A DNA stretch of 54,067 nucleotides from Dictyoglomus sp. NZ13-RE01 (lineage in GTDB: Bacteria; Dictyoglomota; Dictyoglomia; Dictyoglomales; Dictyoglomaceae), in NCBI GenBank assembly GCA_002878375.1, contig NIRF01000011.1, positions 1 to 54,067 on the forward strand, in the 5' to 3' direction. This document shows, in pieces, positions 27,722 to 30,537 of the stretch (position 1 is the stretch's first letter; every line of letters starts with the position of its first letter). Position numbers and translations under genes: made by a program. The notes under the pieces were generated by a model. It ran no database searches, had not been told where the DNA came from, and saw nothing but the letters and a program-made list of their open reading frames with translations.

Positions 27722-27744
27722 TATTATTTGATGTGATCAACGGC

Positions 27745-27791
27745 GACCAACATTCATTTTCCCAAGAAGATAGTGAATGTTGGTCTTTTTT
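27745..27791 (+). terminator. Terminator-like inverted repeat in the leader of the DUF4914 gene
   Basis: GACCAACATTCA (27745-27756) pairs perfectly with TGAATGTTGGTC (27774-27785) around a 17-base spacer and is followed by six T (27786-27791). It lies upstream of, not after, a gene: the ATG is 28 bases downstream and no plus-strand gene precedes it. It may be an attenuator, the 3' end of a short RNA, or a DNA operator. An upstream ATGTTAGT (27680-27687) could pair with the 5' arm but lies outside the expected transcript. Confidence 0.65.
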
Positions 27792-27818: not shown

Positions 27819-29699
27819 ATGGTGAAGGAGGAGATAGAATATTTTATAGTACCAAAAGAAGTTGAGGAAATTCTGCATTCTTGTAAAAGTATCTTTATAC
27901 CTGAAAAAAGGGAAGAGTTTTTTGATCTCGCTACTGGTTGGAAAGACAACCTTTATTATGAGGTTAAATATTTTGTTCCAGGTAAAGGAGAAGTAGTTGA
28001 AGCAACGGTTACCCGTTGTAAGAACGGTATAGTAGTAAACTATCCAGATGTTTATATGAGAAGAAGAGACCCTGATAGCATGGTTATAGGAGATGAGGGA
28101 GATACTGATAAGCCAACCTTTAAAGAGAGATTTGGGGAAGATTTTGATGTATTACGCCAGAAAACCTTTGACTGGTTAAAAGAACAGGACTTAATAGTAA
28201 TGCCTTTTATGGCAGGAGGGGAAGATTTAGGCTATGAAGCACTCTTGATATCCCCATTAAATGCAGCATTTTTTGCTGGTGGACTTGCTGATATCCAAGG
28301 TTTTATACCAAGAAGTAAGCTAAGGCCAGGTTTTAAACCAATAGCTATAATTTACCTTGCACCCCCCTTTAGACATACCCATTTTGATGGTAAACAGATT
28401 GTTGTTCATAATAGAATAAACGGTCTCCATGAGATTTTCTCTTATAATTTATATCCAGGACCCAGTGCTAAAAAGGGTGTATATGGTTTTCTCATTACCA
28501 TAGGAGAGATCGAAGGTTGGGTCAGTGCCCATGCTTCTACAGTAAAGATAATTACTCCTTACGATAATGTTCTTGTCATAATGCATGAAGGAGCAAGTGG
28601 TGGTGGAAAAAGTGAAATGACCCAACAAATGCACAGAGAAAAAGACAATAGAGTCCTATTAGGAACAAATATTGTTACAGGAGAAAAATATTATATTGAG
28701 ATACAGGAATCTTGTGAAATCCACCCAGTAACAGATGATATTGCCCTTTGCCATCCTAAATTACAAACGGGAAGAGGTAAAATGGTAGTAAAGGATGCAG
28801 AACAAGGATGGTTCGTAAGATTGGATAATATAACACAATATGGAACAGACCCACAGTTAGAGAGGCTCTGTATTCATCCACCGGAGCCTTTGATCTTTCT
28901 AAATTTAGAGGCACATCCAGGCGCAACTGCATTGATATGGGAACACATCATGGACGAGCCTGGAAAACCATGTCCAAATCCAAGGGTCATCATTCCTCGT
29001 AGATTCATATCAAACATTGTAAACGAGCCTGTAGAAGTAGATGTAAGAAGCTTTGGATTAAGAACTCCGCCATGTACAAAAGAGAAACCTTCTTATGGAA
29101 TAGTTGGGCTATTCCATGTTCTTCCTCCTGCCTTAGCTTGGCTATGGAGGCTTGTAAGTCCACGAGGTTATGCAAATCCCAGCATAACTGATACTGACGC
29201 TATGAGTAGTGAAGGGGTAGGCTCATACTGGCCCTTTGCTACAGGGAAAATGGTAAAACAAGCAAATTTACTACTTGAGCAAATATTAGAATATAGAAAT
29301 ACCCAATACATACTTGTTCCCAATCAACATATAGGTGCTTATAAGGTTGGATTCATGCCTCAATGGATAGTTAGGGAATATTTGGCAAAAAGAGGAAGTG
29401 CAAGACTTAGACCAGAACAGTTAAAGCCTGCTCGTTGTGCTCTTCTTGGCTTTGCCCTGGAAGTTGTAAAGGTTGAAGGACATTACATTCCAAAAGCCTT
29501 TTTACAAGTTGATCAACAACCTGAAGTAGGGATAGAAGCATATGACAAAGGGGCAGAGATACTAAAGAACTTCTTTAAAAACGAGCTTAAAAAATTCATC
29601 TCTTTGGATCTTGATCCTCTTGGTAAGCAAATAATCGAGTGTTGTTTAGATGATGGTACATTAGAAGATTACATAAATTTGATACCACCAAGAAGATGA
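27819..29699 (+). CDS. DUF4914 family protein with a P-loop, PEP-carboxykinase-like
   Basis: A 626-residue cytoplasmic protein from the ATG at 27819 (AAAGGAG upstream; an ATG at 27777 in frame overlaps the leader hairpin). I recognise it as the uncharacterised DUF4914 family. A clear Walker A, GASGGGKS (258-265), sits in IMHEGASGGGKSEMTQQMH, and later stretches NPRVIIPRRFI and EGVGSYWPFATGKMVKQAN recall the kinase-like fold of PEP carboxykinase and HPr kinase. That relation is my inference and not a proven homology. H185, H187 and D190 in FRHTHFDG could bind metal. It overlaps the phosphatase gene by 4 bases, suggesting a joint pathway. The true reaction is unknown. Confidence 0.7.
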   Translation: MVKEEIEYFIVPKEVEEILHSCKSIFIPEKREEFFDLATGWKDNLYYEVKYFVPGKGEVVEATVTRCKNGIVVNYPDVYMRRRDPDSMVIGDEGDTDKPTFKERFGEDFDVLRQKTFDWLKEQDLIVMPFMAGGEDLGYEALLISPLNAAFFAGGLADIQGFIPRSKLRPGFKPIAIIYLAPPFRHTHFDGKQIVVHNRINGLHEIFSYNLYPGPSAKKGVYGFLITIGEIEGWVSAHASTVKIITPYDNVLVIMHEGASGGGKSEMTQQMHREKDNRVLLGTNIVTGEKYYIEIQESCEIHPVTDDIALCHPKLQTGRGKMVVKDAEQGWFVRLDNITQYGTDPQLERLCIHPPEPLIFLNLEAHPGATALIWEHIMDEPGKPCPNPRVIIPRRFISNIVNEPVEVDVRSFGLRTPPCTKEKPSYGIVGLFHVLPPALAWLWRLVSPRGYANPSITDTDAMSSEGVGSYWPFATGKMVKQANLLLEQILEYRNTQYILVPNQHIGAYKVGFMPQWIVREYLAKRGSARLRPEQLKPARCALLGFALEVVKVEGHYIPKAFLQVDQQPEVGIEAYDKGAEILKNFFKNELKKFISLDLDPLGKQIIECCLDDGTLEDYINLIPPRR

Positions 29700-30472
29700 G
29701 AGAAGAAATAAAGGTTATAGAAAAAATTGTTAAAGAAGCTGGAAAGATTCTTCTTAATTATTTCTACGAAGAAAAAGAGGTGAGATTCAAAAGTACATCT
29801 AATCCAGTAACAAAAATAGATAAACTATCGGAGGAAAAATTAATTGAAGGGTTAGAGAAATACTTTCCAGGATACACAATTTTAACAGAAGAATCAGGAT
29901 TCATCGATAAAGGTTCTGATTATAAGTGGATTATAGATCCTTTAGATGGGACAATAAATTATATTCATAATTTCCCCTTTTTCTCTATAAGCATTGCCTT
30001 AATAAAGAAGGATGAAATAATTTTAGGTGTAGTATATGATCCTTTAAGAGATGAATTCTTTTCTGCTTATAGGAAAGAAGGAGCCCATCTAAATTTTGAA
30101 AAAATTTATGTGTCTTCAGTAGACAAAATAAGTAATGCTTTACTTGCTTTTGGACTTCCATATCACCTCACCTTAGATGACGAAAATTTTCAGCCATTTA
30201 TAGATTTTTCAAAAAGATGCCAAAGTATAAGAAGAGCAGGATCTTCTGCCTTAGAACTTGCATATATAGCCTCTGGAAGGTTGGATGGATATTGGTGTAA
30301 AGAGCTAAATTTATGGGATATTGCAGGCGGAATAATTCTTGTAGAGGAAGCAGGGGGAAAAGTTACTGACTATCAAGGAAAGAAAATAATTCAGGAAAAG
30401 ACAAGTATCATAGCAACAAATGGTTTAATACATGAGGAAGTTAGGAATATAATAAATAGGGTGCGCCTGTAG
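29696..30472 (+). CDS. Inositol monophosphatase family phosphatase
   Basis: A 258-residue Mg-dependent sugar phosphatase. E65/E66 (LTEESG), the metal motif DPLDGTINYIHNFP with D81 and D84, and the C-terminal WDIAGGIILVEEAGG with its conserved Asp are all present. Such enzymes hydrolyse inositol 1-phosphate, fructose 1,6-bisphosphate or similar compounds; which one cannot be told. It overlaps DUF4914 by 4 bases. The last codons and the stop TAG (30470-30472) lie inside the tRNA-Arg gene. Confidence 0.9.
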   Translation: MREEIKVIEKIVKEAGKILLNYFYEEKEVRFKSTSNPVTKIDKLSEEKLIEGLEKYFPGYTILTEESGFIDKGSDYKWIIDPLDGTINYIHNFPFFSISIALIKKDEIILGVVYDPLRDEFFSAYRKEGAHLNFEKIYVSSVDKISNALLAFGLPYHLTLDDENFQPFIDFSKRCQSIRRAGSSALELAYIASGRLDGYWCKELNLWDIAGGIILVEEAGGKVTDYQGKKIIQEKTSIIATNGLIHEEVRNIINRVRL

Positions 30473-30537
30473 CTCAATGGACAGAGCATCAGCCTCCGGA
30501 GCTGAGGATAGAGGTTCAAATCCTCTCAGGCGCACCA
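30463..30537 (+). tRNA. tRNA-Arg (anticodon CCG)
   Basis: A full cloverleaf: acceptor GCGCCTG (30463-30469) pairs with CAGGCGC (30527-30533), discriminator A and an encoded CCA end at 30537. The anticodon stem TCAGC/GCTGA encloses CTCCGGA, anticodon CCG (reads CGG). The first 10 bases double as the end of the phosphatase gene. Confidence 0.95.

Follow-up and report, generated by a model that had tools for sequence, protein, structure and literature searches.

Does a P-loop protein encoded beside an inositol-monophosphatase family gene, in an alpha-glucan gene neighbourhood, act with that phosphatase on a common substrate, or does it belong to a different part of metabolism? The question is raised by a DUF4914 gene in a 54,067-nucleotide stretch of Dictyoglomus sp. 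NZ13-RE01 (contig NIRF01000011.1, hereafter the window), for which a sequence-only reading had proposed that kinase and phosphatase work as a pair, with a single sugar or inositol phosphate as their common substrate. By combining sequence profiles, structure prediction and surveys of other genomes, we conclude that an overlooked phosphoenolpyruvate carboxykinase (PEPCK) is probably the better explanation. The confidently predicted model has a PEPCK fold along its whole length and the aligned catalytic residues are conserved, both of which support this; judged from sequence and model, we put the probability that DUF4914 constitutes a distinct, divergent class of PEPCK at roughly 0.72, and we infer from this its reaction, direction and nucleotide or pyrophosphate (PPi) donor.

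The DUF4914 gene and its neighbourhood

The frame at 27819-29699 on the forward strand is open and encodes a 626-residue protein, as the sequence-only reading had it, which in a profile search aligns end to end with PF16260 (DUF4914; positions 1-612 of 612; score 1103.6 bits, cut-off 25.7). A longer mechanical reading frame extends to an in-frame ATG at 27777; the start at 27819 is favoured because AAAGGAG, a ribosome-binding site, lies directly upstream of it. The leader, which sits between divergent genes, carries a strong hairpin followed by TCTTTTTT (27745-27791, forward strand), resembling a terminator or attenuator, that has no match to an Rfam family and was not seen in the relatives examined, two of which are finished genomes of the same family (1,855,560 and 1,959,987 bases). 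The short motif ATCAACGGYGA is also found in the DUF4914 leader (27736-27746 in the window, 10689-10699 in L110 and 10287-10297 in L111); the window genome shares it with the two finished relatives, and the other members of the genus have TCTTCAANGACGA in its place.

The adjoining gene (29696-30472, forward strand) encodes a 258-residue inositol-monophosphatase (IMP) family protein (Inositol_P, PF00459, E 1.1e-63), and the proposed 4-base overlap is indeed present as ATGA. The alpha-glucan surroundings hold up as well, comprising an alpha-glucan phosphorylase, a pair of GH57 proteins, of which one is branching enzyme-like, and genes of the MalE/F/G/K type. Conserved linkage is what failed: in a BLAST survey spanning many phyla, with the same genus and family included, an IMP-family gene was detected beside DUF4914 in none of 102 other loci, 92 of which had at least 800 nt of sequence downstream of DUF4914. 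The pairing is local to the window genome, and the IMP-family gene is not a conserved partner. IMP-family proteins can act as fructose-bisphosphatases; if the pairing is meaningful, it may reflect gluconeogenesis, which would fit the alpha-glucan surroundings. The PRK12676 model scores 171.8 bits against the IMP-family protein, below its cut-off of 264. At the far end of this reading frame, a tRNA-Arg(CCG) gene (30463-30537) overlaps the last 10 nt and contains the IMP stop codon.

Profile comparisons and conserved residues

In HMM-HMM comparisons, DUF4914 scores 46.0 against ATP-PEPCK (E 9.1e-5, 473 columns) and 43.9 against GTP-PEPCK (E 1.9e-4), with maxima of 26.4 and 25.1, respectively, among 40 column-shuffled decoys per comparison; the accepted ATP- and GTP-PEPCK homologues score 32 against each other in the same test, alignment depths differing between comparisons. 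The PF16260 model alone weakly picks up a genuine ATP-PEPCK (E 5.9e-4), and the sole PDB sequence match to the DUF4914 family profile, likewise weak, is the ATP-PEPCK of T. thermophilus (E 0.07); a single-sequence search of the PDB with the DUF4914 protein gave no match. Neither PF01293 (ATP-PEPCK) nor PF00821 (GTP-PEPCK) matches the DUF4914 protein or any protein in the window genome.

The profile alignments place R82, Y212, K218, K219, H238, K264, S265 and R389 on R61, Y196, K201, K202, H221, K243, T244 and R323 of an ATP-PEPCK (L093), equivalent to E. coli R65, Y207, K212, K213, H232, K254, T255 and R333. Against GTP-PEPCK, H238, K264, S265, D306, D307, N387, R389 and R415 align with their corresponding residues. 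The full catalytic set needs both alignments jointly because each misplaces or omits some residues: in the GTP alignment a gap displaces Y212, K218 and K219 by a few residues, and D306 and D307 are unaligned in the ATP alignment. The N-terminal half of the protein can also be aligned with PEPCK.

Across 95 DUF4914 sequences, none of these residues varies. The R81-R82-R83 triplet (28059-28067) is invariant, R82 aligning with the substrate-binding arginine R65 of the E. coli enzyme. The stretch Y212-P-G-P-S-A-K218-K219 (28452-28475), corresponding to Y207 and K212/K213 of PEPCK, whose second lysine is a Mn2+ ligand, is invariant save for P213, which differs in a single sequence. H238 (28530-28532), aligned to histidine in both the ATP and GTP profiles, corresponds to the Mn2+-ligand histidine (E. 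coli H232, rat H264), and D306-D307 (28734-28739), aligned to D285-D286 of a GTP-PEPCK (L103), correspond to the kinase-2 and Mn2+-ligand aspartates of the GTP-PEPCK GDDIAWM motif; both features are invariant. K219, H238 and D307 would supply the lysine, histidine and aspartate of a predicted Mn2+ site.

The Walker A motif noted earlier at residues 258-265 is confirmed as GASGGGKS, with G258-A259-S260-G261 and G263-K264-S265-E266 invariant and the position of G262 occupied by glycine in 88/95 homologues. It lies within H256-E257-GASGGGKS-E266 (28584-28616), whose flanks are family-specific: H256, E257 and E266 are invariant in DUF4914 and absent from the PEPCKs aligned here. Together with K264 and S265, the downstream arginine of the invariant N387-P388-R389 (28977-28985), aligned to arginine in both profiles (R333 of the ATP-PEPCK ENTR motif, R405 of the GTP-PEPCK HPNSR motif), completes the phosphoryl-handling residues of a PEPCK. 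Further downstream, G506-x-Y508-x-x-G511-F512-x-x-Q515-W516 (29334-29366) resembles, by eye, the GTP-PEPCK segment KFLWPGFGEN; G506, F512 and W516 are invariant and position 508 is tyrosine or tryptophan in 89 of the 95 sequences, and the likeness over G506-Q515, with its possible base-binding aromatics, hints at a purine-binding pocket without proving one.

Predicted fold

An AlphaFold2 model built from the 95 DUF4914 sequences, with no PEPCK sequence included, reached a pLDDT of 93.2 and a pTM of 0.91. When this model was compared with the PDB using Foldseek, the best 50 matches listed were all PEP carboxykinases (ATP-, GTP- or PPi-dependent), mostly over alignments of ~610-710 columns. The E. 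coli ATP enzyme 6at3 matched with E 1.0e-23 over 644 columns; the chicken and rat GTP-PEPCKs followed with E from about 2e-22 and weaker, the M. tuberculosis GTP-PEPCK with E ~3e-21 and the Propionibacterium PPi-PEPCK 8e1u with E 2.1e-21. In a viral structure library, two giant-virus PEPCKs were the only significant matches. Query-normalised TM-scores of ~0.60-0.66 and an rmsd of 5-7 Å to solved PEPCKs point to a true but distant relative in the modelled structure, and identity in the structural alignments is 12-17%. The earlier suggestion of a PEPCK/HPr-kinase fold, made from motifs, is supported for PEPCK by sequence profiles and predicted structure alike; HPr kinase is absent from the best 50 fold matches listed. 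The least confident part of the core, residues 451-470 (29169-29228; pLDDT blocks 66 and 84), has the sequence position of the PEPCK mobile lid loop and is presumably a lid of this type.

Distribution and metabolic setting

DUF4914 exceeds the PF16260 cut-off in 25 of 389 sampled genomes, always in single copy and with a wide gap in score (members ~950 bits, everything else 18 bits), and among 14 named control genomes its carrier is T. maritima. Across 85,000 species genomes it occurs in at least 583 stretches, from Clostridia, Spirochaetes, Chloroflexi, Bacteroidetes, Planctomycetes, Verrucomicrobia, Omnitrophota and others, and the window protein is 53-86% identical to DUF4914 proteins of several phyla. 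Recurrent neighbours in the 102 surveyed loci include MpsC (PF10057; 23 loci, Spirochaetes among them, nearly always upstream and on the same strand), PurE (14), DUF3360 membrane proteins (10, many overlapping or abutting with gaps of -4 to 44 nt) and an MFS transporter cluster (7); loci linked to MpsC or DUF3360 include L028, L034, L044, L052, L054 and L069. These neighbours fit loosely with metabolism of CO2 or carboxylates. The MpsC linkage is only a hint in this direction: in S. aureus, mpsC accompanies the genes of the bicarbonate transporter MpsAB but is itself dispensable, and no part in the uptake of bicarbonate has been demonstrated for it (PMC6689103).

In the window genome and three relatives (G002-G004), none of the four profiles searched (PEPCK_ATP, PEPCK_GTP, PEPcase and PYC_OADA) gave a match. 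Since these profiles turned up neither an ATP- or GTP-PEPCK nor a carboxylase of PEP or pyruvate, DUF4914 becomes the best candidate for the link between PEP and oxaloacetate, though not the sole conceivable entry to C4 compounds, since a malic enzyme is present in Dictyoglomaceae as an alternative C4 source. DUF4914 is probably the main PEP-oxaloacetate link in this family, and malic enzyme possibly joins it in a malate shunt. For D. turgidum, the genome paper predicts a reductive TCA cycle that is incomplete and extends to oxaloacetate, and its main text contains neither 'phosphoenolpyruvate' nor 'pyruvate carbox' (PMC5167688).

Outside Dictyoglomaceae, a full-length classical PEPCK is present as well in 13 of the 20 DUF4914 genomes sampled, and we accordingly rejected DUF4914 as a simple replacement of the latter. 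An enrichment of DUF4914 in genomes devoid of all other carboxylating enzymes was likewise discarded, being indistinguishable from 20 control genomes: among PEPCK-less genomes, DUF4914 carriers did not clearly lack PEP carboxylase and pyruvate carboxylase together more often than non-carriers (10 of 20 controls lack both). Given this coexistence and this comparison, presence and absence leave the function of DUF4914 unproven.

Other PEPCK-like sequences surfaced in these searches. A PF01293 match in genome G001 (L107, 2715-3425, reverse strand), ~20 kb from DUF4914 and considered as a decayed ATP-PEPCK, proved to be the truncated remnant of a divergent PEPCK-like protein with an LSANGKTST P-loop. 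Several other divergent PEPCK-like groups, 540-630 and ~900 residues long, give weak PF01293 matches (L142 5103-6728, L143-L145, L140 1401-4142, L141 1795-4479, L148 and L151); in G250, one of these is located 3 kb away from DUF4914.

Proposed mechanism and alternative explanations

As a PEPCK, the DUF4914 protein would bind oxaloacetate, or PEP and CO2, at a Mn2+ ion held by K219, H238 and D307, with R82 and Y212 positioning the carboxylates, the P-loop (K264, S265) and R389 handling the transferred phosphoryl group and the mobile lid (~residues 451-470) closing over the active site. Oxaloacetate would be decarboxylated to the enolate and then phosphorylated to PEP; alternatively, the reaction would run in reverse, fixing CO2. 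This step is both a central branch point and a CO2-fixing reaction, and a complete-looking PEPCK that is conserved and widespread, and labelled only as a DUF, may thus be causing metabolic models to miss a main carbon route; those of Dictyoglomus, Thermotoga maritima, Thermoanaerobacterium, many anaerobic Clostridia, Planctomycetes and Omnitrophota are possibly affected. A bolder and rather doubtful extension is that DUF4914, found in ~6% of sampled genomes, is a compact PEPCK class with a phosphoryl donor of its own (PPi/Pi or an unusual nucleotide) and the missing PEP-oxaloacetate enzyme of Dictyoglomaceae and of other anaerobes that seemingly lack every known one.

Among the alternatives, an enzyme that kept the PEPCK fold, metal site and phosphoryl-transfer chemistry but uses some other beta-keto acid or enolisable compound as its substrate is unlikely, though the likeliest outside PEPCK activity itself. 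The frequent coexistence of classical PEPCK with DUF4914, the invariant residues H256, E257 and E266 that flank the P-loop in this family only and the low identity to any PEPCK would all suit such a substrate; against this, the counterparts of the oxaloacetate- and PEP-contacting residues R65, Y207 and K213 are invariant, and no other PEPCK was found in the window genome and its three relatives. A tentative narrowing of the preferred PEPCK reading, rather than a departure from it, is a second, compact PPi-dependent enzyme (PEP + CO2 + Pi -> oxaloacetate + PPi). The presence of 8e1u among the fold matches is in keeping with this, as is the coexistence of DUF4914 with ATP and GTP enzymes, a pattern reported for the known PPi-PEPCK (PMC8100219). 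However, the solved PPi enzyme has 1126 residues and was ranked lower than the ATP enzymes by the fold search, and the invariant F512 and the Y/W at 508 resemble, by eye, the base-binding aromatics of GTP-PEPCK.

A sugar or inositol-phosphate kinase that shares a small pathway with the IMP-type phosphatase next to it, for which the 4-base overlap and alpha-glucan neighbourhood in the window genome would speak, seems very improbable, given the unlinked IMP gene elsewhere and a predicted PEPCK fold whose active site is of the oxaloacetate/PEP type, not that of a sugar kinase. We consider an HPr kinase/phosphorylase-like protein kinase less probable still. HPr kinase and PEPCK have a P-loop core in common, which is what would speak for it, but the best 50 fold matches listed are whole-length PEPCKs, Pfam gives no Hpr_kinase match for the DUF4914 protein and the alignment to PEPCK takes in the N-terminal half as well.

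Comparison with known PEPCK classes

The window protein is a full member of DUF4914 along its whole length; Pfam names no function for this family, NCBIfam 20.0 has no model matching the protein, and we found no mention of DUF4914 or PF16260 in the openly accessible papers searched. With ATP-PEPCK (PckA, PF01293, EC 4.1.1.49), DUF4914 shares the whole-length fold (6at3), the motif order and counterparts of R65, Y207, K212/K213, H232, K254, T255 and R333. It differs in identity (~14-17% in structural alignments), in length (626 against ~540 residues) and in its P-loop (GASGGGKSE against GLSGTGKTT), and by eye it has no equivalent of the R449-type base-pocket arginine. GTP-PEPCK (PF00821, EC 4.1.1.32) is similar to it in length; the EGWxxxH, DDIA, NxR and FGxR stretches align, and an aromatic base pocket is possibly common to both, whereas the GTP-PEPCK P-loop reads SACGKTN and its W516-F517 pair is replaced, by eye, by N502-Q503. 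PPi-PEPCK (EC 4.1.1.38, 8e1u) has the fold in common with DUF4914 (E 2.1e-21, TMq 0.66), but at 1126 residues the solved enzyme is much longer. By sequence, DUF4914 would take its place as a further class of PEPCK, with a presumed PEPCK function, beside the ATP, GTP and PPi enzymes.
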